Positions 771 to 20,269 of a stretch of DNA of 21,545 nt are shown piece after piece. Source of the stretch: Lachnospiraceae bacterium (GTDB lineage Bacteria; Bacillota_A; Clostridia; Lachnospirales; Lachnospiraceae); contig DMAZ01000260.1 of the NCBI GenBank assembly GCA_003446335.1, forward strand, positions 1-21,545, in the 5' to 3' direction. How positions within the stretch are numbered: position 1 is the first letter of the stretch; every line of letters begins with the position of its first letter. Under the pieces are notes generated by a model. The model did no database searches, was not told where the DNA came from, and worked only from the letters and a program-made list of their open reading frames with translations. Made by a program: the position numbers and the translations under genes.

Positions 771-3700
771 TTACTTATTATTAAAGAAACTTGCATTAAA
801 TCCGTGGATTTTTGATTTCCAGTCGCTTCCTATATATGTATTCATATAATGTGCCACGTGTGCATTCCAGTTCTTCGTGTCCATATACTTGAATACATCT
901 GCAGATGGTTTTGGCGATCCGTTGCTGTTGTAGATGCCAAGCCACCATCCACCGGATGTCTCACCGGAATTATCATAATCTCTGTGAATCGCCAGCTGAT
1001 CAATGTTGGGATCGAACTCAGCCAGGTAATAAGCAAATGCAACGGCCGCGGCCTGTTCACCCTGCATCTGCCTGCCTTCATATACCGAAGACAGTCCGGT
1101 CTCCGACATAATGATTCGTGTCGAAGTCCCGTAGGTATTTTTAATATAAGCGGCAAAATATCGTGCGTTCAGCATGGTGATCTGCTGAGCCGCTCCGGAA
1201 TTTTCCACGGTAAAAGCTCTGTTCCAGATACGGCAGTCCTGTTCGGGCGACGGATACGGATGCATTGCCATATCCCAGTGGATCAATCCCTGACGCCTTA
1301 AATCCGTGTTGAAATCTGAGGTAAGCTTCATACCGCTGTACGATCCGCTCAAAGTCCATGACAGATTCCAGTTATGGTCAAGGGAGATGTATGTTCTGGC
1401 ATTTTTCCATCTGCTCTTGATGGCCGCGTTGAACATACGGAATTCCTCGGCCAGGACTTCATGATACTCACTGTAGGGGATGTCACCGGCGTAATGGTAA
1501 ACATTATACTGCTGGAGCTCATTTCCGTAAATCCAGTTCGCCAGTGTACAGCCGCTCGTGCACCAGTGATCCGTCAGGCATGCAAAGAGTGCTTCCAGTC
1601 TCTTTCTGTCGCTCGTCCTCGTATTCAGCGCGTAAAGAGTCGCCGCCCCTCTCCTGCTTCCGGAAGCCGCTGCCGGATACATATATCTTGTATTGGAACT
1701 GTCATACAGGTAGAAAATACCTGTGACAATTATGCCGGCCCGGTTATAGGCCAGAATACGGTCCCGATATACATCGATAATATGGCTGAAGTGATACGTT
1801 GTTCCTTCGTACTTGTAAGCGATCTCACTTCCGCTGAGGAAGGTGTCGATCGGAAGATCCAGGACAACATGGCTGCACTTAAGATCTTTCGCCAGATTGA
1901 TCGAATCAGCCCCGGTCTTTATACCTTTCTTGGTTCCGCGTGATGCTTTCGGGAATGCTTTGACGTTGGTCGCCGCAGCCTGAGGATTCTGAATGTAAAA
2001 GCCATTGCTTATAACGGTATATGTTCCATGACTAAGGGTTGCAATATAGAACTTCCTCATAAGAAGACTTCCGGCGGCATTCTTGTTCAGATTCGCATGG
2101 AACGTGTAACTGGTCCCCATCGGGGCCGACGCGATCGGTGTGTAGCCCTTCAATGTTCTTCCATACGGAGAAATTGCGAAAAGATATGCTCTCTCCGTAT
2201 CCGAATACTGCTTGGTACCACTTGCCAGGACAGTGATCGTTTTGTGATCATCAAAGTCAATATAATTCTTGGTGATCGTTACTGAAGTAAAATACCATTT
2301 CTGCTGAGCATTATTCGCATATGTACTCAGCTGGATATTGGCACCGTACGCTTCTGATCCTGTCATATCTATAGCCATGTTCTGATTGAGCGCAGACTTA
2401 ATTATGTAACTTCCGTCACTCATCAGGACCGGCCGCCATAACTGAGATTTTGCTCCTCTATAAGTGCCGAGCTGAATATTGGTACCCGCGTGGGCGGCTC
2501 CTCCTGCCGTTTCCAGTACCTTCCCGGAAAGGACAGACACGATCTTGAACCAGTAATTGGTCTTTCCCCCGAACGTTACCGCGACCAGCTTAAATTTCTG
2601 AGCTTTCGTCGCATTCCAGTCATAACAGTCAATGTTCGTTCCGTCTGCAGTTCCCGCTCCGGCGGCGTCCATGACCCGGTCGGAATTCAGAACGGAGCGA
2701 ATATATACTTCGCCGGTCGGAATTGCCGTTCCGTTATAGATTGTTGTATAAAACTTCTCGCTTGAGTAATCTTTATATGTCGAGAGGATGAATTTAGTTC
2801 CGGCAGCTTTCAATCCCTGATAGACAGCTATTGCCAGGGTGGAATTCAATCTGGATAGGAACGAATAGGTCCCGTTCGAGTTCTTCCTGATGAGCCATTG
2901 CTGACAGAACTTGTTGTTTCTTGTCTCCTGTATGATCGCAGCTCCGCTCTTGTTCTCGGAATTTTTGACAGATAAAACAAGCCCGTTGCTTCTGTTCACA
3001 AGAACATAATATCCTGCGGCATACTGAACAGCCGTGTATGTTAAGATCTTTGAATTCTCAGCTGCTTCCAGCTTGATAGCCACACCGCTTCTTGCAGAAT
3101 TTCCAGCAGGTGCCGCGCACATCTTCGTTGCATGAGACGGTCTCAGCTGCATCGTACCGGCATAGCTTGGAATCGGGGTCTCCGTGAAGATAAATTTCTG
3201 TGCAGCCGTATTGTTCCATTTATAAAGCTGAATATTTTGATTATTGGCAAGGGATCCCGCATAAATGTCAATGACATAATTCGTGTTCATCGCTGACGCA
3301 ATTCGATAGGAGCCATCATTATTTTTAATAAGCTTCCACTTGGCACACCTTGCACTGTTGAATTCGAACTGCCATATATTGGCGGAATTTTTGGGCTCAT
3401 TTCCCTCTATACGGAGAACCTTCCCGCTGTGGAAATTGGCAAATGTGACCGACCCGTCCGTAAACTTTCTGCACATGAATTTCTGATCAAGCGTTTTTGT
3501 CAGCTGATAAAGATTGATATTGGCCTGATTATTAATAGAATTTCCATGTACTGTCAGCGCAAAATTCCTGTTCGCCGCGCTGCGGATATAATAAGTCTTC
3601 CCGTCTTCCGGTACAGCTGATGTGTATGTCGATCCGACAACAGTCTCCTGAAGTCCTTTCTTTCCGGACGTACTGGAATCTGTCAGACTGTCTGTCTGAC

Positions 3701-4070
3701 CGGCGGAGCTGTCATCCGGTATAAGATCACCGACTGATTCATCCGGAATCACCTCTTCGACTGTCTCCGGTACCGCGTCCGTCGAGTCATCCGTAAGATC
3801 CTCCACCTCGGTCAATTCAGACTCATCAGACATCTCTTCTGCTGCGTCTTCCTCCAAAGCTTCTGCAGCACTTTCACTCTCAGCAATATCGGAGATTGAT
3901 TCATCGCCCGTCAGGATCTCAAGATTATCCCCCTCATCCATCTCGTTCTCCAGGGCAATGCCTACCGTATTTTCTGTTAAGGTGTCAGTGTCCGAACCGT
4001 ATACAGGCATAACTGACCCGGCTAACAGTGCTGCGGAAAGCAACCATGTTATCAGTTTTTTACCCTTCAC
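771..4070 (-). CDS. Secreted protein: three ricin-type lectin modules plus DUF5722-like barrel
   Basis: The frame is open to 4208, but the real start is probably GTG at 4070, preceded by GGAGG with 7 nt spacing and followed at once by a signal peptide (KGKKLITWLLSAALLAGS, cleavage near residue 25). This gives 1099 residues. In order: an acidic Ser/Glu/Asp linker (about 36-134), three beta-trefoil ricin-B-like modules (about 152-299, 301-444, 451-596) with degenerate QxW/QKF repeats, a beta-rich domain (597-699) and a C-terminal region (700-1099) that I match from memory to DUF5722. The barrel shows GNE (Glu851) and MSETGL (Glu990), in the order and spacing of the acid/base and nucleophile glutamates of clan GH-A glycosidases. 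It is probably an exported carbohydrate-binding, possibly carbohydrate-cleaving, enzyme. There is no LPXTG or SLH anchor. Substrate unknown; catalysis is inferred. Confidence 0.85.
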   Translation of the reverse strand: MKGKKLITWLLSAALLAGSVMPVYGSDTDTLTENTVGIALENEMDEGDNLEILTGDESISDIAESESAAEALEEDAAEEMSDESELTEVEDLTDDSTDAVPETVEEVIPDESVGDLIPDDSSAGQTDSLTDSSTSGKKGLQETVVGSTYTSAVPEDGKTYYIRSAANRNFALTVHGNSINNQANINLYQLTKTLDQKFMCRKFTDGSVTFANFHSGKVLRIEGNEPKNSANIWQFEFNSARCAKWKLIKNNDGSYRIASAMNTNYVIDIYAGSLANNQNIQLYKWNNTAAQKFIFTETPIPSYAGTMQLRPSHATKMCAAPAGNSARSGVAIKLEAAENSKILTYTAVQYAAGYYVLVNRSNGLVLSVKNSENKSGAAIIQETRNNKFCQQWLIRKNSNGTYSFLSRLNSTLAIAVYQGLKAAGTKFILSTYKDYSSEKFYTTIYNGTAIPTGEVYIRSVLNSDRVMDAAGAGTADGTNIDCYDWNATKAQKFKLVAVTFGGKTNYWFKIVSVLSGKVLETAGGAAHAGTNIQLGTYRGAKSQLWRPVLMSDGSYIIKSALNQNMAIDMTGSEAYGANIQLSTYANNAQQKWYFTSVTITKNYIDFDDHKTITVLASGTKQYSDTERAYLFAISPYGRTLKGYTPIASAPMGTSYTFHANLNKNAAGSLLMRKFYIATLSHGTYTVISNGFYIQNPQAAATNVKAFPKASRGTKKGIKTGADSINLAKDLKCSHVVLDLPIDTFLSGSEIAYKYEGTTYHFSHIIDVYRDRILAYNRAGIIVTGIFYLYDSSNTRYMYPAAASGSRRGAATLYALNTRTSDRKRLEALFACLTDHWCTSGCTLANWIYGNELQQYNVYHYAGDIPYSEYHEVLAEEFRMFNAAIKSRWKNARTYISLDHNWNLSWTLSGSYSGMKLTSDFNTDLRRQGLIHWDMAMHPYPSPEQDCRIWNRAFTVENSGAAQQITMLNARYFAAYIKNTYGTSTRIIMSETGLSSVYEGRQMQGEQAAAVAFAYYLAEFDPNIDQLAIHRDYDNSGETSGGWWLGIYNSNGSPKPSADVFKYMDTKNWNAHVAHYMNTYIGSDWKSKIHGFNASFFNNK

Positions 4071-4077
4071 AATGTTT

Positions 4078-4082
4078 CCTCC
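4078..4082 (-). promoter_or_regulatory. Ribosome binding site fixing the GTG start at 4070
   Basis: GGAGG on the minus strand, 7 bases before GTG 4070. The next codons encode the positive n-region of the signal peptide. The 46 upstream in-frame codons start with TTG, have no such site, and would bury the signal peptide. Confidence 0.8.
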
Positions 4083-4232
4083 ATTTCTGAAATATAGTCT
4101 TTTGAACGGAGATACCTTTTCCGTCCTTTTCCTGCTGAGAAGCCGCTTTAAAAGGCCTCGATCCACGAGCAGGGAACGTGTTGTGAGCGTCTGTCTTACT
4201 TGTAACAATTAAGTTAACACATAATTAAGATT

Positions 4233-9772: not shown

Positions 9773-11047
9773 TCATTCCTGTACATTCTGAGGGAATGCC
9801 ACCCTCTTCGTCCATCTCAGATGCGTGGCCGGGAAAAATCCTCCGAAGCCGAGATCCTCGGCAGTGATCACACATTCCGATGCGGAACTGCAGTGCAGTT
9901 CAAGCCGCATTCTTGTTGCTCTCGCGGGACGTCTGGGCAGGTCCGGAAGCTCCATCTTCACCAGTTTTCTCGCACTTCCGTCCATGGGGACCATGGCAAA
10001 TGTCAGATCATCTTTTCCGTCAAGTATGATTTCGCACACCCCTGTCTCCTCGAACCAGTTCTTTCCGGACATAAGCAGCGGGATGAACATCATTTTTCCG
10101 TCAACGATCATATCCATCCCAACTTCAGTCTTCAGAAGATCGGGACTCATATAGATCCTTCCCTTAATGGCCTTCTTCTCACATATTTCGTATGCGGCAT
10201 AGCAGGCTCCCTTAACGAACAGATTGTCACCGTAGAAGATTCGCCTTTTTCCTCTGTTAAGGAAACGAATTGATTTTTGCGGCCAGTCGGTGTCAAATCC
10301 GTCACCGGTTATAAGGACGCCCGAATAGATGTCCTGTTTCATATGCTTTGCGGCAAATTCCAGAAAGCGGTCATCTCTTTGAGAAGGATCTTCCGGAAGC
10401 TGGCAGATGTCATATGACTCCACTTTTACTACAGCGGGTCTTAACGCTTTCTGCTCACTCAGCTCATGATACTGAACCGTATTCCCGCCGAAAACAAAAA
10501 GTGCAATATTGCGGGTCCAAAAATCCGGTCTCTGGCTATAGGAATAATAATAGAAGCTTTCCATGTAATCCTGAAGTGAATACTGCTCCGTGGCAAAGCC
10601 GATCGAAGCAAGAGCCCTTCTCATATTCTCTACAAGAATAACGTCCAATTTTTCTGTCGTTATCATGATTTTCGACACGCCGGCCACAATATCCTTCAGG
10701 CCGGTCAGTTTCAGTGACTCCCTGAAGAAGAATGCCAGAAGCTGCCATGCACGGGGCAATTCCCCTTCTTTTACCGGTTCATCGGTCGGCATTTCTGTCG
10801 CTGCGCGTTCGTAAAGGTCGGCCAGATAGATGCCTCCCATCTTTTTGCCAAAATACTCCGCCTCCAGTCCGAAATGCCATTCATTCCGATCCGGTTTTCT
10901 GCCGATCGCTGTCGCGAACCTGTAAAGATTGGTCCCGACTTTCGTGGGTATGCAGACCGGTTCTTCCGCTTTTCGATCATAATAACAGATCTGTGAAAAC
11001 TCCCGGTTAAATTCAAATCCTATAAGGACATTGCGAACTTCGTTCAA
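9773..11047 (-). CDS. Divergent Hsp70/actin-like (ASKHA) protein, DUF5716-like
   Basis: A 424-residue soluble protein. It starts at TTG 11047, which overlaps the TGA of the previous gene as TTGA, with GGAGG seven bases upstream. I match it from memory to DUF5716. Reading it against DnaK suggests the ASKHA fold: residues 7-20 VLIGFEFNREFSQI take the place of the phosphate-1 loop (DnaK IGIDLGTT); 125-170 resemble the SKIMIT...A...G...YMESFYYY stretch before phosphate-2; 181-195 IALFVFGGNTVQYHE resemble phosphate-2 (DLGGGT); 243-257 GVLITGDGFDTDWPQ and 273-286 resemble the adenosine motif and its GAA helix. Key acids are changed (Asp to Glu13-region, Asp to Val185-region), so ATP hydrolysis is doubtful. 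A beta-rich C-terminus (about 295-424) follows. Function unknown. Confidence 0.8.
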   Translation of the reverse strand: MNEVRNVLIGFEFNREFSQICYYDRKAEEPVCIPTKVGTNLYRFATAIGRKPDRNEWHFGLEAEYFGKKMGGIYLADLYERAATEMPTDEPVKEGELPRAWQLLAFFFRESLKLTGLKDIVAGVSKIMITTEKLDVILVENMRRALASIGFATEQYSLQDYMESFYYYSYSQRPDFWTRNIALFVFGGNTVQYHELSEQKALRPAVVKVESYDICQLPEDPSQRDDRFLEFAAKHMKQDIYSGVLITGDGFDTDWPQKSIRFLNRGKRRIFYGDNLFVKGACYAAYEICEKKAIKGRIYMSPDLLKTEVGMDMIVDGKMMFIPLLMSGKNWFEETGVCEIILDGKDDLTFAMVPMDGSARKLVKMELPDLPRRPARATRMRLELHCSSASECVITAEDLGFGGFFPATHLRWTKRVAFPQNVQE

Positions 11048-14000
11048 AACTTATCCTCCAGTACGAATAATGTATCTACCAGCTGTCTTGTCTGACGATA
11101 CTGACTGATTTTCTCGATCAGGAGCTCCGGCTCCTCCGATTCACACAGCTCCAGCATCTGATTGATCATCTGATACTGGCTTCTCCCTTCCATATCACAG
11201 GTATCGGCCTTTGCGGAAAAATCTTCACTGCGCCACTCGTTCCCGTCTCTGCTGATCGTAATATAGTATTCCAGCGTCTCTCCGTAGAACAGAACAAATT
11301 CTTTCGAGAAGATTCCCTTATAGACCCGCTCCAGCGGTACCGTATCATAAGGCTTCTCCATTTCACCCGCCGACAGGAGCCTGTAATGCAGAATAACTGT
11401 GTCGTCAGGCCGTGCATGCTGCTCGACAAAAATTTTGTCATCAAGTTCATACTGAGCAAGGAAAGAGACCGGAAGATTCTTAAAGAAAGCGAATCGATAG
11501 CCTCTGATCGCACATTCATCGAGAATAGAATCGATCAGAGCCTCCTCATGGATCGTAAAACTGCTCTTTTTCTTTGTGTAATACAGAAGAAGTGCAATTC
11601 TCCAGATTTGTTCGGTTTCTTCCCCGTTATCGATGCACCGGACAATATATTTGGCGGAATAATCGTCAATAGCCTCACCGGCAGCAAAGCAGCGATCTGC
11701 CTCGAAAGTCAGGTAATTTGAAATCGTAGCGTTGCGTCCGAAATGTTCGGCATAGTTCTTTAGGATCTGTCCGCCCTCCGGCAGTATTCTCTGAACAAAT
11801 ATACACCTGTTCAAAATTCTTCCGTCCAGCTTTTCCGTGTCGACGACCAGGCCTTCGGCCGCTTTTCGGATTTTTAACATCTGATCCAGGCTGCCGTTAT
11901 AATACTCCGTAAGATATCTGAGCATTTCCTCATCATACTTATTCTGTCTGAAAGCGGCCAGAGCAAGCATGAGGATCTCCTCATCGTATTTTCCTTCGCC
12001 CCTGGTGATCACATAATTTGCCAGACGGACGAGCTGCCCCGGATCGATCCTGTCATATCCGAACTTACTGAGCAATAAAAAGGCTTCCTGATAAAATCCT
12101 CTGGAAATCATGGCATTTGCCAGAAGGACCTTGTCCTCACCTGCAAAAACACGGTAATCGACCCTCTGCAGATACTGGTCGAGAGATTCATTCTCCGCAT
12201 GGTCGGCAATATATCTGAGGATTCCGCTTCTTATTTTCGTTCGGAATTCCGGTGTGAACTCGGATGAACCCTCAATTCTCTTCATGGCGTCAAAGTTCTC
12301 GATGGAGATATCTTCAAGCACGCCCTGACCCATGGCTGTATTGAGAAGGAAACCTGTAGAATCACAGTCTTTGGCCCGGCAGATCCTGCTCAGTTCCGTG
12401 CGGTCCATGAGCGGTGTCTCGGAGAACGGTACTCCGTTGACGAATCGGTTGCCCCTCCCGTCGGAAAAGAGAATTTTGGCGTTCGGTGTATAGCGGCTGA
12501 TAAAAGCCTCCCCCTGACGCACCGTGTAAATGTCCTCTCTGCAGAGTTCCTCATGGCACACGATCACTTCGCGCACCCTTGAGTCATCCGTATAGACACG
12601 GTTCGTGAACATAACATCCGCAATTTCCCGTTCCAGATCAAGCAGTGCGAACTCTTCGCTGAATGTCTGATAGAGCACGGCGTAGCTGCTGTCAATTCTC
12701 CTCTTTTCAAGAGATTTGACGGCAAATTCTGACATTGCCTTTCTATACTGGTCAAATGTCTCGGGATCACGGTCACGATTGCGGATGACATTTGCATAAA
12801 CAAATGCCTTTCTGCGATCAGACAGCGATGTATTCAGCGCAAAATACTTGCGGATCGGTTTCGGCAGAAGTTTCTGATAAGTATCAGGCATGGTCTCTAC
12901 GTAAAATTCATAGAGCCTGGTAATATGATAATCGCTCTCCACGGCCAGTGAATACCATTTAAAGTACTCGGCATGTACCGGCATCCCCTTCATGAGCAGT
13001 CGTACGATAGCTTCCAGCAGTTCCGGAAGCGGATACATCTCGTATGCTCCTGTCAGAAGACGATATACGGGCTGCGTAAAAGTTTTCTCATTTTCGGACA
13101 AATGAGCCATTCGGCTTGCCAAATCCTTAGGAAGCACCTGCTTTCTGACCGCAAATACCATCACGTGACGCATAAAGGAATTCAGGCGTCTCATGTAGGA
13201 ACCGTCACGCCTTAAAAGATTGAGAGCTTCGATATATAGAAGCGGACTTCTGCACCCCGATTTGAAGATCTGCTCCATGGCATACATTTTCTTGGCGGGC
13301 GAACGCAGGAAGTCCGGATCGATCCTGAACAGGATCCAAAGGAGAAGAAAGCTCTCCTGATCTTTCCGGAACCACTCACGAACATGACCCACGATATCCA
13401 TCTGGCGGGGATCAAGATACCCCGTGATATGCCCCATATAAAGGAACATGGCCTTCGCTTCCGCCGATTCTCCCCGAAAATCTCTGGCGGAGAGTTCTTT
13501 CATGATGAGGCCCGCTCCCTGCCTGTTGCCAGCGGTCTCCTCAATATACGCTTCATACAGCTCATAGAGTGTCGGATAATCTCCCATCTCACGAATAGCG
13601 GTGAGGAGACTTCTTGTTCCGGTACAGTAAGCCTTCCGCTCAATTTTATCCGTCTCGTAATCCACATACAGACGTGTGAGTTTGATCAGATTCTTCCTCG
13701 AGATGGTCCCCATATCCACACGGATCGGGCCGTTCTTCGACGCAACGACCGGGATCTCGATGATCTGGCTTTGGGTACTGATCGTAATTTTTCCGAAATA
13801 GCAGCCCTTGCCCAGCCGGTCGCCATGCACGATATAATTAAAATCGCATACAGAACCGACAAAATCGTCAGACGTGATCCTCTTTCTGGGAATTTCCAAA
13901 AAATCCGAGTCAGCTTCGGCATGTATGTCCAGATAACCCCATCCGCTTCGATGGAGGATGACCGTGTTGCGCTGAGATCCGGTAAGATTATAGTATTTTC

Positions 14001-14625
14001 CTTCCTCCGCGTCAGCAGAGATCGATACGGGTTCCTTGCATCCGGTCGCAACAAGAAATTCCTCAACGCGCTGATAGGTGACCGGATTTCTCGACAGGCC
14101 CCTGTATAATGCTCTTGTCTCTTCATCACATCCTGCCAGGACGACCTGAAAGGCCGGACTCATAAAGACCCTGTACGCTTCCTCGTAGTTTCCTCTTGCC
14201 AGCTGAGCGAAATCCTTCAGATTCCGGATCATACCGTATGCAGACTCCACCGGGCTGACAACAACGTGAACTATCACCGGAATATTATATTCCCCGGCAC
14301 TGGTCGCGAGATGTATATTTCCGCGTATACAGTCGCCACCGGAAAGCCCGGTCGTAAAAACACCGAAATGCAGACGGAAAGAGGGACCGTTAAAACGCTC
14401 CCTTTCCGGAACTATGCGGGCATCGTCCGTCGATACATATGCGCGAAGCCTTATATTATCATCTGTGCTGACAATGAGATCAGCCTCATAGTTCTCCCCT
14501 TCATTCACGGTCGCCTCGAACCGTTCCGAAGAGAACGTCAGTTGTGTTGGAATGCTGTCGTATTTGTCATCATTTTCGTAGATCGTGCGAATCAAATCTG
14601 CTTCCGTCCTTATTTGTTTTTTCAA
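11044..14625 (-). CDS. Large beta-sandwich plus helical-solenoid protein, DUF5717-like
   Basis: A 1193-residue protein from TTG 14625 (AAAGG four bases upstream). The frame is open to a TTG at 14649, but that coincides with the predicted transcription start, so the shorter form is preferred. No signal peptide or membrane helix, so probably cytoplasmic. Residues about 24-125 and 197-297 are two beta-rich stretches with the same ending pattern (GNIHLATSAGEYNIPVIVHV and GKITISTQSQIIEIPVVAS), suggesting duplicated Ig-like domains joined by a helical linker. Residues about 310-1040 are helical, with TPR/solenoid-like periodicity. The end (about 1060-1150) is beta-rich again. I match it from memory to DUF5717. 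First gene of the operon with the Hsp70-like and TPR-like genes; it overlaps the next by four bases, so the products are likely made in proportion and may form a complex. Confidence 0.85.
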   Translation of the reverse strand: MKKQIRTEADLIRTIYENDDKYDSIPTQLTFSSERFEATVNEGENYEADLIVSTDDNIRLRAYVSTDDARIVPERERFNGPSFRLHFGVFTTGLSGGDCIRGNIHLATSAGEYNIPVIVHVVVSPVESAYGMIRNLKDFAQLARGNYEEAYRVFMSPAFQVVLAGCDEETRALYRGLSRNPVTYQRVEEFLVATGCKEPVSISADAEEGKYYNLTGSQRNTVILHRSGWGYLDIHAEADSDFLEIPRKRITSDDFVGSVCDFNYIVHGDRLGKGCYFGKITISTQSQIIEIPVVASKNGPIRVDMGTISRKNLIKLTRLYVDYETDKIERKAYCTGTRSLLTAIREMGDYPTLYELYEAYIEETAGNRQGAGLIMKELSARDFRGESAEAKAMFLYMGHITGYLDPRQMDIVGHVREWFRKDQESFLLLWILFRIDPDFLRSPAKKMYAMEQIFKSGCRSPLLYIEALNLLRRDGSYMRRLNSFMRHVMVFAVRKQVLPKDLASRMAHLSENEKTFTQPVYRLLTGAYEMYPLPELLEAIVRLLMKGMPVHAEYFKWYSLAVESDYHITRLYEFYVETMPDTYQKLLPKPIRKYFALNTSLSDRRKAFVYANVIRNRDRDPETFDQYRKAMSEFAVKSLEKRRIDSSYAVLYQTFSEEFALLDLEREIADVMFTNRVYTDDSRVREVIVCHEELCREDIYTVRQGEAFISRYTPNAKILFSDGRGNRFVNGVPFSETPLMDRTELSRICRAKDCDSTGFLLNTAMGQGVLEDISIENFDAMKRIEGSSEFTPEFRTKIRSGILRYIADHAENESLDQYLQRVDYRVFAGEDKVLLANAMISRGFYQEAFLLLSKFGYDRIDPGQLVRLANYVITRGEGKYDEEILMLALAAFRQNKYDEEMLRYLTEYYNGSLDQMLKIRKAAEGLVVDTEKLDGRILNRCIFVQRILPEGGQILKNYAEHFGRNATISNYLTFEADRCFAAGEAIDDYSAKYIVRCIDNGEETEQIWRIALLLYYTKKKSSFTIHEEALIDSILDECAIRGYRFAFFKNLPVSFLAQYELDDKIFVEQHARPDDTVILHYRLLSAGEMEKPYDTVPLERVYKGIFSKEFVLFYGETLEYYITISRDGNEWRSEDFSAKADTCDMEGRSQYQMINQMLELCESEEPELLIEKISQYRQTRQLVDTLFVLEDKF
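11055..11059 (-). promoter_or_regulatory. Ribosome binding site for the TTG start at 11047
   Basis: GGAGG lies seven bases before TTG 11047, inside the last codons of the DUF5717-like gene. With the TTGA stop/start overlap it fixes this non-ATG start and implies coupled translation. Confidence 0.85.
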
Positions 14626-14654
14626 GCTGCCTTTCAGGCAGTAACACAAAATGA

Positions 14655-14714: not shown

Positions 14715-17700
14715 TCAGAGCATATCGAACAGAGAGATCTGATTCGATTCGGGGATATCCCCCAGTATACCGTATTCGTTGAACAGATCTATGATCGTCT
14801 GAGAAACCTTGGTCCTCTGCCGGAAGTCATCTCTGGACAGGAAAGGTCCGTTCTTCGCTGCCTCCTCGATTGATTCGGCTGCGGATTCACCCAGTCCTGC
14901 AATGGAACTGAAAGAAGGCATCAGTTTTCCGTCCAGGATCGTAAACTTCGTGGCTTTAGCCTTGTACAGATCCAGTCTGTGGAATTCGAACCCGCGGGCA
15001 TACATTTCTCTTACGATCATCATGTCCTTGAGCATTTCCTCTTCTTTAGGCGATTTATCCGTCTTTTCTTCCAGTTCTTCCGCATGATGTTCCAGGACAT
15101 CCCTTCCCTGCGCCATAATGACATAGTCAAAAGTCGTGACACGAATGGAGAACATGGCAGCGTAGTATGCGAGAGGATAATTGATCTTATAATAGGCAAT
15201 ACGAAATGCATTCATTACATAGGCTGCGGCATGTGCCTTCGGGAACATATACTTGATCCTTTTGCAGGATTCTATATACCATTCAGGCACATTGTGCTCC
15301 CGCATTTCCGCTTCCTGATCCGGTTTTAATCCCTTTCCTTTTCGTACCGCCTCCATGATCTTGAAGGAATGTTCCGGCTCAACGCCCCATGCAATCAGGT
15401 TGAGCATGATATCATCACGGGTACAGATCGCGGTCGAAAGCGTGCAGTCCCCGTTCTTAATGAAATACTGGGCATTATCGAGCCATACATTCGTCCCGTG
15501 TGAAAGACCGGAAATTCGGATCAGCTCCGAAAGGCTCTTCGGCTTTGTATCTCTGAGCATGCCCATAACAAAGTTGGTTCCGAATTCCGGAACACCGAGT
15601 ACCCCGAGGTCTATACCGCCCATATCCTCCGGTCTTACTCCCAGAGCCTCTGTCCCTGTGAACAGAGAGAGGACACCCGGGTCGTCAAGGGGAACTTCCA
15701 GCGGATCCGTCCCGGTCAGGTCTTCCAGCATACGTATGATCGTGGGATCATCATGCCCGAGAATATCGAGCTTCAGAAGATTCCTGTCGATCGAGTGATA
15801 ATCAAAATGAGTAGTGATGATATCGGAAGTCATGTCATTTGCAGGATGCTGTACCGGTGTGAACCAGTTGATATCCATGCCTCTGGGCAGAACGATAACA
15901 CCTCCCGGATGCTGTCCGGTCGTTCTCCTGACACCGACGCAGCCCTGAGCAAGCCTCTCCAGCTCACAGTCTTTTTTGGTCATACCCTTATCTTCGAAGT
16001 AATGTCTCGCCAGACCATATGCAGTCTTTTCAGCGACCGTACCGATTGTTCCGGCTTTGAACGTCTGACCTTTTCCGAAAATGACTTCTGTGTAGGCCTG
16101 AGCGACCCCCTGTTCATCTCCGGAAAAATTCAGGTCAATATCCGGCTCCTTATCTCCCTTAAATCCAAGGAATGTTTCAAAAGGAATGTCAAATCCCATT
16201 TTCTTTAAGGGCGTTCCGCACACCGGGCATTTCCTGTCCGGCATATCCGCCCCGCATCTTCCGCCGTAGGCCCTGACTTCCTCGGAATCAAAATCCACAT
16301 AGTGGCATTCCGGGCACAGGTAATGAGGCGGCAGAGGATTTACTTCCGTTATATTGGACATCGTTGCCACCAGTGAAGAACCGACCGATCCTCTGGATCC
16401 CACAAGATAACCGTCTTCTCTGGATTTTTGGACCAGGCGCTGAGCGATGATATACATAACGGCATATCCGTTCTTGATGATGGATGTCAATTCCTTGTCC
16501 AGACGCGAAACGACCTGCTCAGGTATCGGATCACCATATATTTTCCGGGCTGTATCATAACACATATTCTGCAGATCTTCATCGGAATTCTCGATGACCG
16601 GCGGACATTTGTCCGGGTGGATCGGTGATATGTGCTCTATCATATCCGCAATTTTATTTGTATTCTCTACGACCACCTCATAAGCTTTCTTCTGGCCGAG
16701 ATAGGAAAATTCTTCCATCATCTCTTCCGTCGTATGAAGATACAGAGGCGGCTGCCCCTCATCTTTAAATCCGTGACCTGACTGTATGATCGTCCTGTAG
16801 ATTCCATCCTCCGGGTTGAGAAAATGTACATCACAGGTGGCGACGCACGGTTTCCCGAAATCATCCGCCAGTTTCACAATTTTTTTATTGATCTCCCGAA
16901 GATCATTTTCATTGCGGATACCGCGGGTATGTTCACGGACCATATATTCATTATTACCGACCGGCTGTATCTCCAGGTAATCATAAAAATTAACGATCTT
17001 GGCAATCTCCGAGTCCGGCTTTTCATTTAGTACCGCCTGATAAAGTTCACCTGCAGAGCAGGCCGATCCGATGATCAGTCCTTCACGATGTTTTAAAAGC
17101 AGGGATCTCGGAACTCTCGGTCTTTTCTTAAAATACCTGAGATGTGATTCAGACACGAGCGTATATAGATTTCTCCTGCCGGTCTCATTTTTAGCAAGAA
17201 AAATAATATGATAATAAGGAAGGTTCCGAATTCGTTCATCGGAGACCATTCCCTTTTCATTGAGCATTTTATACGTAGTCAGACCCTGTTTCTTCATGAT
17301 ATCCTGTATCTGAAGCCATGCATGAGCCATCGCCCTGGCGCGGTCATCCGCACGGACAGGATTGGGGCACTGTATTTTCAGGGCTTTACATAATTTTTCC
17401 AGCGTACCCCTGCTCACATGCGGCATAAGATACCGGACACAGGACGGTATATCAACAATCGTCCTTTCTGTCTCGACATCAGAGCCATCCGCGCCTTTGG
17501 TGCGTATATTCCATGACAGACCGGCTTTCCGCAGTGCATGCTCAATAAAAGCCGTTTCCGTCTCAGCGTCGAAGGATACGAGCGTCATATCACCTGCGAA
17601 TGCCAGAAATCTCTCCATTGCTGTCCGATTGTCCGGTGCGCCGGAGACCATGTCGTCATTTATTCTGGTCTCACGTATAAAAGAGAATGGGAGAGGTTTT

Positions 17701-19142
17701 CCGGGATTGATCAGAGTCGTAAAGCTTTCCGTGAGATTTCCCTTAACGATCTTCTGCGCAGATATCTCCACAAGATCATTCGATATGGCACTCGGTCCGG
17801 TAGCTACCGTCTGAAAGACAACGACCGGTTCGGCGGTCTCCCGGTCATCCGGTCCTTTTACGAGGCTCACCATATCATCCACCAGATACCCTTCACATCC
17901 GTAAATGACCTTAAAATCCGGATCTTTTTCGTCAGAAGCATGATGTGCTTCCGGGAAAGCCTGAACAACACCGTGGTCAGTAATTGCCAGAGCTTTCATT
18001 CCCCATCCTTTGGCCTGTCTGATGATATCCTTAGCCGATGATACAGCATCCATATCAGACATCTTCGTGTGGCAGTGCAGCTCAACACGTTTTACAGGTG
18101 CATGATCTGACCGGGTATCCCTGAAAGGACTGATCTTCTTTAAGGAATATACGGTTTTGATCATAATTTCCTTTTCGAACCGGTCAAAATCCATCATTCC
18201 TTTTACGAGAAAGCATTTCCCGCTTTTGATCTGCTCGGTGTAGATACCGAGTTCCTCAGGAAGCAGCCATAATTTGAACCGGATACTGTCCGTATAGTCC
18301 GTCAGAGCCGCTGTCAGTATAATTTTCCCGTTTCTGGTCTCATGGCTCTCCACCTGAAATACTTCACCGCGCACGACGACCTCATGCGGATCTTCTCCGA
18401 GGGAACTGATCGGCACGGGATCTTCCGGGATACCTTTTCCCAGGATAACGTCAGGATCATTTGCAATAAAGCCTTTCTGCTGACGATACTTTTTATCGGA
18501 AGCATTCGGAAGCTTCTGCGAAGGCTCCGCCTGCTTTTTCTCCTTTCGGCTGATGTTCTTTCGCACGACATCGGAAACCTTGCTGCGGATCCTCTCAGCG
18601 TCGACTTCAAAAAGTTCACTGACATCATTCGAGACGATCGTCCCCTCCACACGGACATAGGAAAACCCCGCACGCTCACAGAAGACCTTCTCCAGATAGT
18701 CAAGAAGTTCTTCCTTGCGCCTGCGGGCAATGATACTGTCCGGTATCTCGGCATAGACAAGACCGTTTTCACTGAATGTAAGCTTCGTATGCAGAAAAGT
18801 CTGATACAGAAGCGGGCTCACGTTCGAAAGCTCCGCATTCATACTGGTCCTGTAGACACGGTAAAAATTAGCGGGCGTATACTGGGAAGACAGGCGGAAA
18901 CGTTCTATGATATGAACCTCCATCTCGACATCCCCGAAGATCTGATCCGAGATTGCCTCCTCGATCTCATATATATGCTTTTTCTTTATCCAGTTATCAG
19001 AACAAATATAAACATGCAGGCGAGTCTTGCTCTGATTAACTGTCAGCCTGTTGACTGTGACATACTCGAGGAGACTTATGATCTCCCCGGAAAGTTTCAG
19101 AGATGGAAAAGCCTGCATGAAAGACATTTCTTTATTACTCAT
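14715..19142 (-). CDS. polC: DNA polymerase III alpha subunit, Gram-positive type PolC
   Basis: The replicative polymerase of Bacillota, 1475 residues, normal length. In order: an N-terminal domain (1-200), an OB-fold (about 250-335), a PHP domain split by an exonuclease domain (PHP 352-425 and 636-775; exonuclease about 440-612), a zinc-finger-like CPEC...CPVC block (943-976), the palm with PDIDLNFSG (catalytic Asp1001, Asp1003), and a C-terminal clamp-binding QISLF (1468-1472). All nine PHP metal ligands seem present: His356, His358, Asp365, His390, Glu417, His645, Cys695, Asp771, His773. The DEDDh exonuclease has lost its catalytic residues (Gln444, Val446, Glu529, Val596, Arg601 at the D, E, D, H and D positions). 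No clear Shine-Dalgarno precedes the ATG at 19142; Met6 or Met9 are alternatives. It follows ispG by 59 bases. Confidence 0.97.
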   Translation of the reverse strand: MSNKEMSFMQAFPSLKLSGEIISLLEYVTVNRLTVNQSKTRLHVYICSDNWIKKKHIYEIEEAISDQIFGDVEMEVHIIERFRLSSQYTPANFYRVYRTSMNAELSNVSPLLYQTFLHTKLTFSENGLVYAEIPDSIIARRRKEELLDYLEKVFCERAGFSYVRVEGTIVSNDVSELFEVDAERIRSKVSDVVRKNISRKEKKQAEPSQKLPNASDKKYRQQKGFIANDPDVILGKGIPEDPVPISSLGEDPHEVVVRGEVFQVESHETRNGKIILTAALTDYTDSIRFKLWLLPEELGIYTEQIKSGKCFLVKGMMDFDRFEKEIMIKTVYSLKKISPFRDTRSDHAPVKRVELHCHTKMSDMDAVSSAKDIIRQAKGWGMKALAITDHGVVQAFPEAHHASDEKDPDFKVIYGCEGYLVDDMVSLVKGPDDRETAEPVVVFQTVATGPSAISNDLVEISAQKIVKGNLTESFTTLINPGKPLPFSFIRETRINDDMVSGAPDNRTAMERFLAFAGDMTLVSFDAETETAFIEHALRKAGLSWNIRTKGADGSDVETERTIVDIPSCVRYLMPHVSRGTLEKLCKALKIQCPNPVRADDRARAMAHAWLQIQDIMKKQGLTTYKMLNEKGMVSDERIRNLPYYHIIFLAKNETGRRNLYTLVSESHLRYFKKRPRVPRSLLLKHREGLIIGSACSAGELYQAVLNEKPDSEIAKIVNFYDYLEIQPVGNNEYMVREHTRGIRNENDLREINKKIVKLADDFGKPCVATCDVHFLNPEDGIYRTIIQSGHGFKDEGQPPLYLHTTEEMMEEFSYLGQKKAYEVVVENTNKIADMIEHISPIHPDKCPPVIENSDEDLQNMCYDTARKIYGDPIPEQVVSRLDKELTSIIKNGYAVMYIIAQRLVQKSREDGYLVGSRGSVGSSLVATMSNITEVNPLPPHYLCPECHYVDFDSEEVRAYGGRCGADMPDRKCPVCGTPLKKMGFDIPFETFLGFKGDKEPDIDLNFSGDEQGVAQAYTEVIFGKGQTFKAGTIGTVAEKTAYGLARHYFEDKGMTKKDCELERLAQGCVGVRRTTGQHPGGVIVLPRGMDINWFTPVQHPANDMTSDIITTHFDYHSIDRNLLKLDILGHDDPTIIRMLEDLTGTDPLEVPLDDPGVLSLFTGTEALGVRPEDMGGIDLGVLGVPEFGTNFVMGMLRDTKPKSLSELIRISGLSHGTNVWLDNAQYFIKNGDCTLSTAICTRDDIMLNLIAWGVEPEHSFKIMEAVRKGKGLKPDQEAEMREHNVPEWYIESCKRIKYMFPKAHAAAYVMNAFRIAYYKINYPLAYYAAMFSIRVTTFDYVIMAQGRDVLEHHAEELEEKTDKSPKEEEMLKDMMIVREMYARGFEFHRLDLYKAKATKFTILDGKLMPSFSSIAGLGESAAESIEEAAKNGPFLSRDDFRQRTKVSQTIIDLFNEYGILGDIPESNQISLFDML

Positions 19143-19201: not shown

Positions 19202-20269
19202 TTAAATATCACCGGTCCAGTTCTCCAGCTCTTCTCTCAGAGCTCCGAGAAGTTCCCTTTCAGGCACCTTGCGGATGATTTCTCCGTGCCTGATCAGAAG
19301 ACCAGTGCCTTTTCCTCCGCATATACCGAGATCTGCTTCGGCAGCCTCACCCGGTCCGTTGACTATGCAGCCCATGACGGCGACCTTTATATCAAGCGGA
19401 ATCCCCTCCACCATACGCTCCACATCATTTGCCAGACTGATCAGATCGATCTGTGTTCTGCCGCATGTCGGGCATGACACGACTTCTATGCTCCCGCGGC
19501 GCAATCCGAGTGTCTGCAGAATTCTCTTGCCTACGCGTACTTCTTCCACCGGATCTCCGGTCAGAGAAACGCGGATCGTATCCCCGATACCCTTCGCAAG
19601 AATAACACCCAGACCCACAGACGATTTTATGGTCCCTGAATAGACCGTCCCGGCTTCTGTGATTCCCACATGAAGAGGGTAATCTGTCTGTTCCGCGATC
19701 AGCTCATGTGCACGGATGCACATCAGGACATCCGAGGACTTAATACTTATGACCATCTGATCATAGCCCAGTTCTTCAATTATTCGAACTTTATCCAGCG
19801 CGCTCTCCACAAGACCTTCGGCCGTGACATGTCCGTACTTCTGAATAATATCTTTTTCGAGAGAGCCCGAATTGACGCCGACCCGAATCGGGATGTGACG
19901 TTCCTTAGCCATATCGACGACAGCTTTGATCCGGTCATGTCCGCCTATGTTTCCCGGATTGATGCGAATCGCATCCGCACCGTTCTCCATTGCGGCGAGG
20001 GCCATTCTGTAATCGAAATGGATGTCCGCAACGATCGGAATATGAATACTCTTTTTGATTTTTGAAAATGCCTCAGCCGCCTCGAGTGTAGGAACGGTAG
20101 AGCGAATGATATCGCACCCGGCCTCCTCCAGCCGCAGGATCTGCGCTATAGTCGCGTCCGCATCCTCAGTATGTGTATTGGTCATGGACTGTACGGTAAT
20201 CGGATTTCCGCCTCCGATCATTCGGCTGCCGACCCGTATCTCCTTTGTTTTCTCTCTGAATGTGCTCAA
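19202..20269 (-). CDS. ispG: 4-hydroxy-3-methylbut-2-en-1-yl diphosphate synthase IspG (GcpE)
   Basis: The penultimate enzyme of the MEP isoprenoid pathway: it reductively opens the cyclic diphosphate MEcPP to HMBPP, using a [4Fe-4S] cluster in the cytosol. It has 355 residues, the usual bacterial length without the plant-type insert. The N-terminal TIM barrel (about 5-240) includes GGGNPITVQSMTNT (19-32), VADIHFDY and the substrate-binding RINPGNIGG. The C-terminal cluster domain has SCPTCGRTQ, giving CxxC, then MGCIVNGPGEA, with Cys and Glu ligands. The start is TTG 20269 with GGAGG six bases upstream. A perfect 11-bp inverted repeat lies just before that site. The gene is in a run with folA and thyA upstream and polC downstream, all apparently co-transcribed. 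Confidence 0.96.
   Translation of the reverse strand: MSTFREKTKEIRVGSRMIGGGNPITVQSMTNTHTEDADATIAQILRLEEAGCDIIRSTVPTLEAAEAFSKIKKSIHIPIVADIHFDYRMALAAMENGADAIRINPGNIGGHDRIKAVVDMAKERHIPIRVGVNSGSLEKDIIQKYGHVTAEGLVESALDKVRIIEELGYDQMVISIKSSDVLMCIRAHELIAEQTDYPLHVGITEAGTVYSGTIKSSVGLGVILAKGIGDTIRVSLTGDPVEEVRVGKRILQTLGLRRGSIEVVSCPTCGRTQIDLISLANDVERMVEGIPLDIKVAVMGCIVNGPGEAAEADLGICGGKGTGLLIRHGEIIRKVPERELLGALREELENWTGDI

Follow-up and report, generated by a model that had tools for sequence, protein, structure and literature searches.

The window analysed here, a stretch of 21,545 nucleotides from a Lachnospiraceae bacterium (contig DMAZ01000260.1, positions 1 to 21,545), carries a polC gene encoding a DNA polymerase III alpha subunit in which the inserted DEDDh exonuclease domain is retained but all five catalytic residues are replaced. 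Loss of DEDDh catalysis in this PolC and in the clade to which it belongs is strongly supported by sequence comparison, and the domain is under purifying selection. The whole is best explained, with somewhat better than even probability in our judgement, by an active replicative PolC that would keep a pseudo-exonuclease domain for a non-catalytic job while its PHP domain proofreads.

The protein was assigned to the PolC family by NCBIfam NF001688 (1614 bits, cut-off 873) and TIGR01405 (1474 bits, cut-off 1043). Its Pfam domains follow in the order N-terminal domain, OB, PHP with inserted exonuclease, polymerase core and HhH, the exonuclease lying between the two PHP parts. The features of the gene, all on the minus strand, are:

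14715..19142, minus: polC, full-length PolC-type DNA polymerase III alpha of 1475 amino acids (family models, Pfam domains, alignment to the structure 9QPC)
17853..18089, minus: PHP domain, first part, residues 352-430, with ligands H356, H358, D365, H390 and E417 (Pfam, alignment)
17268..17831, minus: DnaQ-like (DEDDh) exonuclease domain, an insertion in PHP (approximately residues 438-625) that has lost its catalytic residues
17796..17816, minus: motif I, residues 443-449, FQTVATG (canonical FDxETTG), with D444Q, E446V and T447A; T448 and G449 kept
17556..17573, minus: motif II, residues 524-529, FDAETE (canonical HNAxFD), with D529E
17475..17513, minus: 13-position insertion, residues 544-556; most sequences of the dereplicated clade, and every intact relative compared, have a gap here
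17340..17357, minus: motif III, residues 596-601, VRADDR (canonical HRAVDD), with H596V and D601R; R597 and A598 kept
16818..17225, minus: PHP domain, second part, residues 640-775, with ligands H645, C695, D771 and H773 (Pfam, alignment)
15303..16577, minus: polymerase core, residues 856-1280, with the PDIDLNF aspartates D1001 and D1003 present and LKLDILGHDD at 1123
14727..14741, minus: C-terminal QISLF, read from the sequence, which we take to be a putative sliding-clamp-binding motif of the usual type

Replacement of the DEDDh residues and its extent

The catalytic positions D, E, D, H and D read Q, V, E, V and R in the window PolC. A preliminary description had claimed exactly these changes, and had proposed an alignment with a PolC structure and with Lachnospiraceae PolCs as well as a survey of how far the loss extends. 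The alignments place the motifs as claimed. The structure used was 9QPC, the PolC of E. faecium, which was itself made exonuclease-null at two motif I residues. When the altered exonuclease blocks were compared by hhalign with 25 intact Lachnospiraceae blocks, motifs I to III paired up (probability 100, E 1.4e-53). Motif placement agreed across the pairwise alignment against 9QPC, the profile-profile and the profile-to-PDB alignment, and in none of the three was a conserved catalytic set found relocated elsewhere, which rules out that a misalignment hides the DEDDh residues. An assembly or frameshift artefact was likewise rejected, since the open reading frame is open, the 90% protein cluster holds 13 members and the changes recur across the genus. 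With 26.7 bits, the Pfam RNase_T match of the domain still exceeds the cut-off of 24, so automatic annotation would label it an exonuclease and miss the loss.

Relatives were collected by scanning named GTDB genomes (42 loci) and the 42 genomes of the genus of G002, by a family survey and by a search of 5.8 billion proteins, where the best 120 of 7976 matches to the full-length protein were used. The closest relatives in the named-genome scan are Lachnospiraceae metagenome-assembled genomes, one of them titled goat ileum; other close ones carry RUG or RUI names, presumably rumen sets. Within the genus, catalytic residues are altered in 39 of 42 genomes; the site is uncovered in the other three, and no genome has an intact set. 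In a tree built from PHP and the polymerase core, with the exonuclease omitted, all 92 PolCs of the altered type form one clade (support 1.0, stem 0.139), whose sister group consists of other Lachnospiraceae PolCs (129 intact, one exonuclease-deleted and one partly altered). Dereplication at 90% leaves 67 sequences of the clade.

Residues were counted over the 93 clade proteins with a length of 1130 amino acids or more. None of the five catalytic residues is retained in 78 of them, and exactly one in the other 15 (Asp444 in nine, His596 in four, Asp529 in two), so that the claim that all five are changed holds for the window PolC and most of its clade but not for these 15. Glu446 and Asp601 are gone in 93/93 and Asp444 in 84/93. 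In 88 proteins Asp601 has become Arg, and 64 have Glu at 529. In the dereplicated clade, Tyr has a frequency of 0.85 at position 524, and Asp one of 0.73 at position 525. An acidic residue occupies position 599 in the window PolC and its nearest relatives, but no newly conserved acidic residue near motif I or III was found across the clade. The palm aspartates of PDIDLNF are present in 92/93 members, the remaining row being gapped there. With clade-wide fixation, no relocated set and a predicted DnaQ fold, the loss of DEDDh catalysis put forward in the preliminary description is strongly supported, as judged from sequences.

The family survey gave matches in 387 of 397 genomes, and besides two clade loci 68 loci were read (28 from the search output, 40 hand-picked among the listed rows). 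Outside the clade DEDHD was found in 67 of these 68. The exception, L160 of genome G206, shows a partial loss (VFRLETTG, HKAESQ, HRAVEY), whereas the two remaining genomes of that genus are intact. A 10-residue linker stands in place of the exonuclease block in the genus of G009, as read in the 10 of its 11 genomes with coverage of the site, and PHP is complete in all ten; the PolC L018 of this genus groups among intact PolCs in the tree (support 0.898). In a draw across the phylum 129 genomes were searched and 98 matched; among the 69 PolCs read (29 loci from the search output, 40 hand-picked from the table), 35 lack the insertion, 33 have DEDDh intact and one has a 68-residue leftover, figures that give no unbiased share because the reading was partial and partly hand-picked. 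The leftover belongs to L328 (G522), a PolC of 1372 amino acids, and stands at the place of the exonuclease block. PolC without DEDDh is thus not rare in Clostridia; what is unusual is the retained but dead domain.

Maintenance of the altered domain

For the altered domain a DnaQ exonuclease fold is predicted, and its length and predicted fold are maintained across the deep clade. To quantify selection, ratios of non-synonymous to synonymous substitution rates (dN/dS) were taken from six altered and five intact close pairs, hand-picked from lists, one intact pair (L031, L038) lying outside the family. The exonuclease domain gave 0.125 (0.094-0.157) for altered and 0.078 (0.053-0.105) for intact pairs, and the polymerase core of the clade 0.032. 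Medians over all pairs with a core proportion of synonymous differences (pS) below 0.62, 0.35 for the altered and 0.18 for the intact exonuclease domain, were disregarded, as most of these pairs seem to be saturated. Residues of the former nucleotide pocket are better conserved than the remaining domain.

Candidate proofreaders and rival explanations

The PHP ligands of the window PolC read HHDHEHCDH, nine of nine. All were found at the residues given in the preliminary description, but the interval 16900-17830 named there holds only H645 and C695; the codons of the first five are found around 17892-18077, and those of D771 and H773 around 16824-16832. The nine ligands are present in 96/96 altered PolCs, namely L160 and 95 members of the clade. 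They are also complete in 40 of 41 DnaE1 frames, the other being truncated. This count was made on alignment columns, as the initial regular expressions were too strict, and includes duplicates and some comparison genomes; the set is 52 frames above 800 amino acids minus 11 without DnaE1-recognition motifs, among these the truncated DnaE1 L249. MutS and MutL each exceed the cut-off in 37 of 42 genus genomes; of the remaining genomes some have fragments only, and three are without any MutL match. Root-to-tip distance over PHP and the polymerase core is 0.526 in the altered clade versus 0.467 in intact relatives.

A second, active PolC beside the altered one in the same genome was considered and rejected: among the 42 genus genomes, at E up to 1e-50, only G007 has a PolC-like stretch other than fragments of the main gene. 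This divergent frame of about 800 amino acids (L193/L114, contig C230) has a DnaQ-like block N-terminal to PHP, not inserted in it, and when roughly aligned its PHP positions read HHKCEP---. Its contig, from a metagenome bin, is 16 kb long, and the frame may represent contamination or a mobile element.

In the explanation that we favor, the DEDDh domain would have become a pseudo-exonuclease that has the DnaQ fold without the residues binding the catalytic magnesium ions. As part of it, and with the same modest lean in its favor, catalysis would have been lost once, in the ancestor of a genus-level Lachnospiraceae clade, PolC staying an active replicative polymerase. The domain would be kept because a non-catalytic job remains, namely to brace PHP and the thumb and perhaps to hold primer ends that are single-stranded. 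The most likely remover of mismatched 3' ends would be PolC's own PHP site, an intact three-metal centre, with help from the PHP of the partner DnaE1, and MutS and MutL would catch remaining mismatches. Since PHP is complete in PolC and DnaE1 and no clade-wide RNase_T addition is seen in the 11 clade and six comparison genomes, the PHP domains of both are the most economical proofreaders. A PHP takeover is likely on these grounds; of the compensations raised in the preliminary description it is the best-supported account, and we infer it from ligands that are complete in PolC, in DnaE1 and in insertion-less PolCs.

Several observations weigh against this explanation. The nine PHP ligands are also present in 141 of 142 DEDDh-intact PolCs compared, so PHP retention is not specific to exonuclease loss. 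Changes shared by the altered clade and the exonuclease-deleted genus are few, affecting two PHP columns and six columns overall; 13 of 14 control groups gave 0-2, but one also gave six, which leaves convergence in PHP a weak case. The dN/dS intervals of altered and intact pairs overlap slightly. With a mean pairwise identity of 0.471 versus 0.645 in intact relatives, the domain evolves faster than theirs, so gradual decay is part of the truth. It is for DnaE-type enzymes that exonuclease activity of PHP has been documented, and the PolC of G. kaustophilus, with one PHP ligand changed, is said to lack it (PMC5636811).

That decay would be all there is to the domain, a passive relic on its way to deletion that persists only since removal inside PHP must be exact, with fidelity resting on PHP, is rather improbable. 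The lower identity and the deletions in other Clostridia (the linker in the genus of G009, the 35/69 PolCs without the block, the leftover of L328) are consistent with it, but a dN/dS whose upper limit stays at 0.157, the length and fold kept across a deep clade, the new near-fixed Arg601 and Tyr524 and the better-conserved former pocket argue for maintenance. We also consider it unlikely that the domain was rebuilt as a primer-end receptor, which would capture frayed 3' ends and hand them to the PHP site of the same chain; such a receptor could use Arg601, which stands at the site of a metal-binding Asp, together with two retained elements of the former nucleotide pocket, RA and TTG (the latter ATG in the window PolC). 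Equally unlikely is a PolC that does not proofread at all, its higher error rate being tolerated with reliance on DnaE1 and mismatch repair. The slightly longer root-to-tip distance and the MutS and MutL counts point that way, but the PHP ligands are invariant in the clade, the branch-length gap is small, the polymerase core is strongly constrained, and MutS/MutL retention is usual and not diagnostic.

Proofreading in trans by a separate DnaQ-type exonuclease, as also raised in the preliminary description, is very improbable. Several clade genomes encode stand-alone RNase_T-type proteins, including a DEDDh-like protein of 320-372 amino acids starting MNYIVLDLEWNQ or close to it. The same type occurs in comparison genome G015, whose PolC (L016) has DEDDh intact, which speaks against a specific compensation, and in the 4.1 Mb genome G002 the sole RNase_T match is its own PolC. 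No clade-wide or clade-specific replacement DnaQ was found among the RNase_T proteins of 11 clade and six comparison genomes, an absence that is weak evidence since the assemblies are incomplete. Scarcely credible is a domain that still acts as an exonuclease through an unusual active site made of Glu529, Asp525 and others: the frequency of these two residues and the acidic position 599 would fit, but Glu446 and Asp601 are lost throughout, Asp444 nearly so, Arg prevails at 601 and the clade as a whole shares no new acidic residue close to motif I or motif III.

Other PolC variants and comparison with known systems

Two further PolC-like proteins differ in PHP. L032 is a reciprocal case with DEDDh intact and degraded PHP positions (HHDLETGDR). 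L042, a frame of 728 amino acids, has no exonuclease insertion, PHP HHDRDGCNH and a changed first palm Asp (PVIDLNI), and looks like a dead paralog. Within the window, the frame immediately upstream of polC (19202-20269, minus) resembles IspG, as we recognised by eye. An adjacent pair of DUF5717 and DUF5716 proteins without assigned function lies directly downstream (9773-14649, minus), and a 1145-amino-acid protein (771-4208, minus), in which seven RicinB_lectin_2 stretches are combined with DUF5722 at the C-terminus, is probably secreted.

The PolC of B. subtilis is a canonical PolC. With the canonical enzymes of E. faecium (9QPC) and G. kaustophilus (3F2B), the window PolC shares the domain order, the exonuclease inserted in PHP and the polymerase core, whereas the DEDDh residues are replaced in its clade. 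The eighth PHP ligand is Asn in the PolC of G. kaustophilus (PMC3666897) and in two of the 33 DEDDh-intact PolCs of the phylum draw, while the PHP consensus of the window PolC is complete. Like M. tuberculosis DnaE1, for which PHP exonuclease activity has been shown, the window PolC has a complete nine-ligand PHP and would be a replicase not relying on a DEDDh exonuclease; DnaE1 differs in being of the DnaE type, in having no inserted exonuclease and in that its activity was measured (PMC5636811).

In a 2013 survey, PolC without the exonuclease insertion makes up 6% of PolC and, one exception aside, comes entirely from Clostridia and Negativicutes (PMC3919608). These proteins also have no DEDDh activity in PolC, and the PHP ligands are complete in all 35 examined in our phylum draw, but in the window clade the domain is present, predicted to be folded and under selection. 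PolC without the insertion was known already; for a conserved but inactive exonuclease domain retained within PolC, no report was found in the open-access literature. Replacement of DEDD residues in a retained domain, as in the window clade, is described for Pol I orthologs, PolA2/APEX and PolB2, which are A- and B-family enzymes, unlike PolC, and the exonuclease remnant of PolA2 carries a clamp motif. The same 2026 survey states that in Pol III alpha PHP and not the DnaQ proofreader is inactivated, and gives HHDHEH[C/H]DH as the pattern of an active-type PHP exonuclease (PMC12926913). The window PolC fits this ligand pattern, and its clade is, by its sequences, an exception to the statement on DnaQ.

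In the view given in PMC5636811, proofreading by PHP probably gave way to DEDDh exonucleases on three or more occasions, one of them through insertion into PHP in Firmicutes. The clade looks like the reverse of this replacement, caught with the domain still present, and offers a natural test of whether the PHP of a PolC can proofread and of what other roles a polymerase-embedded exonuclease fold may have.

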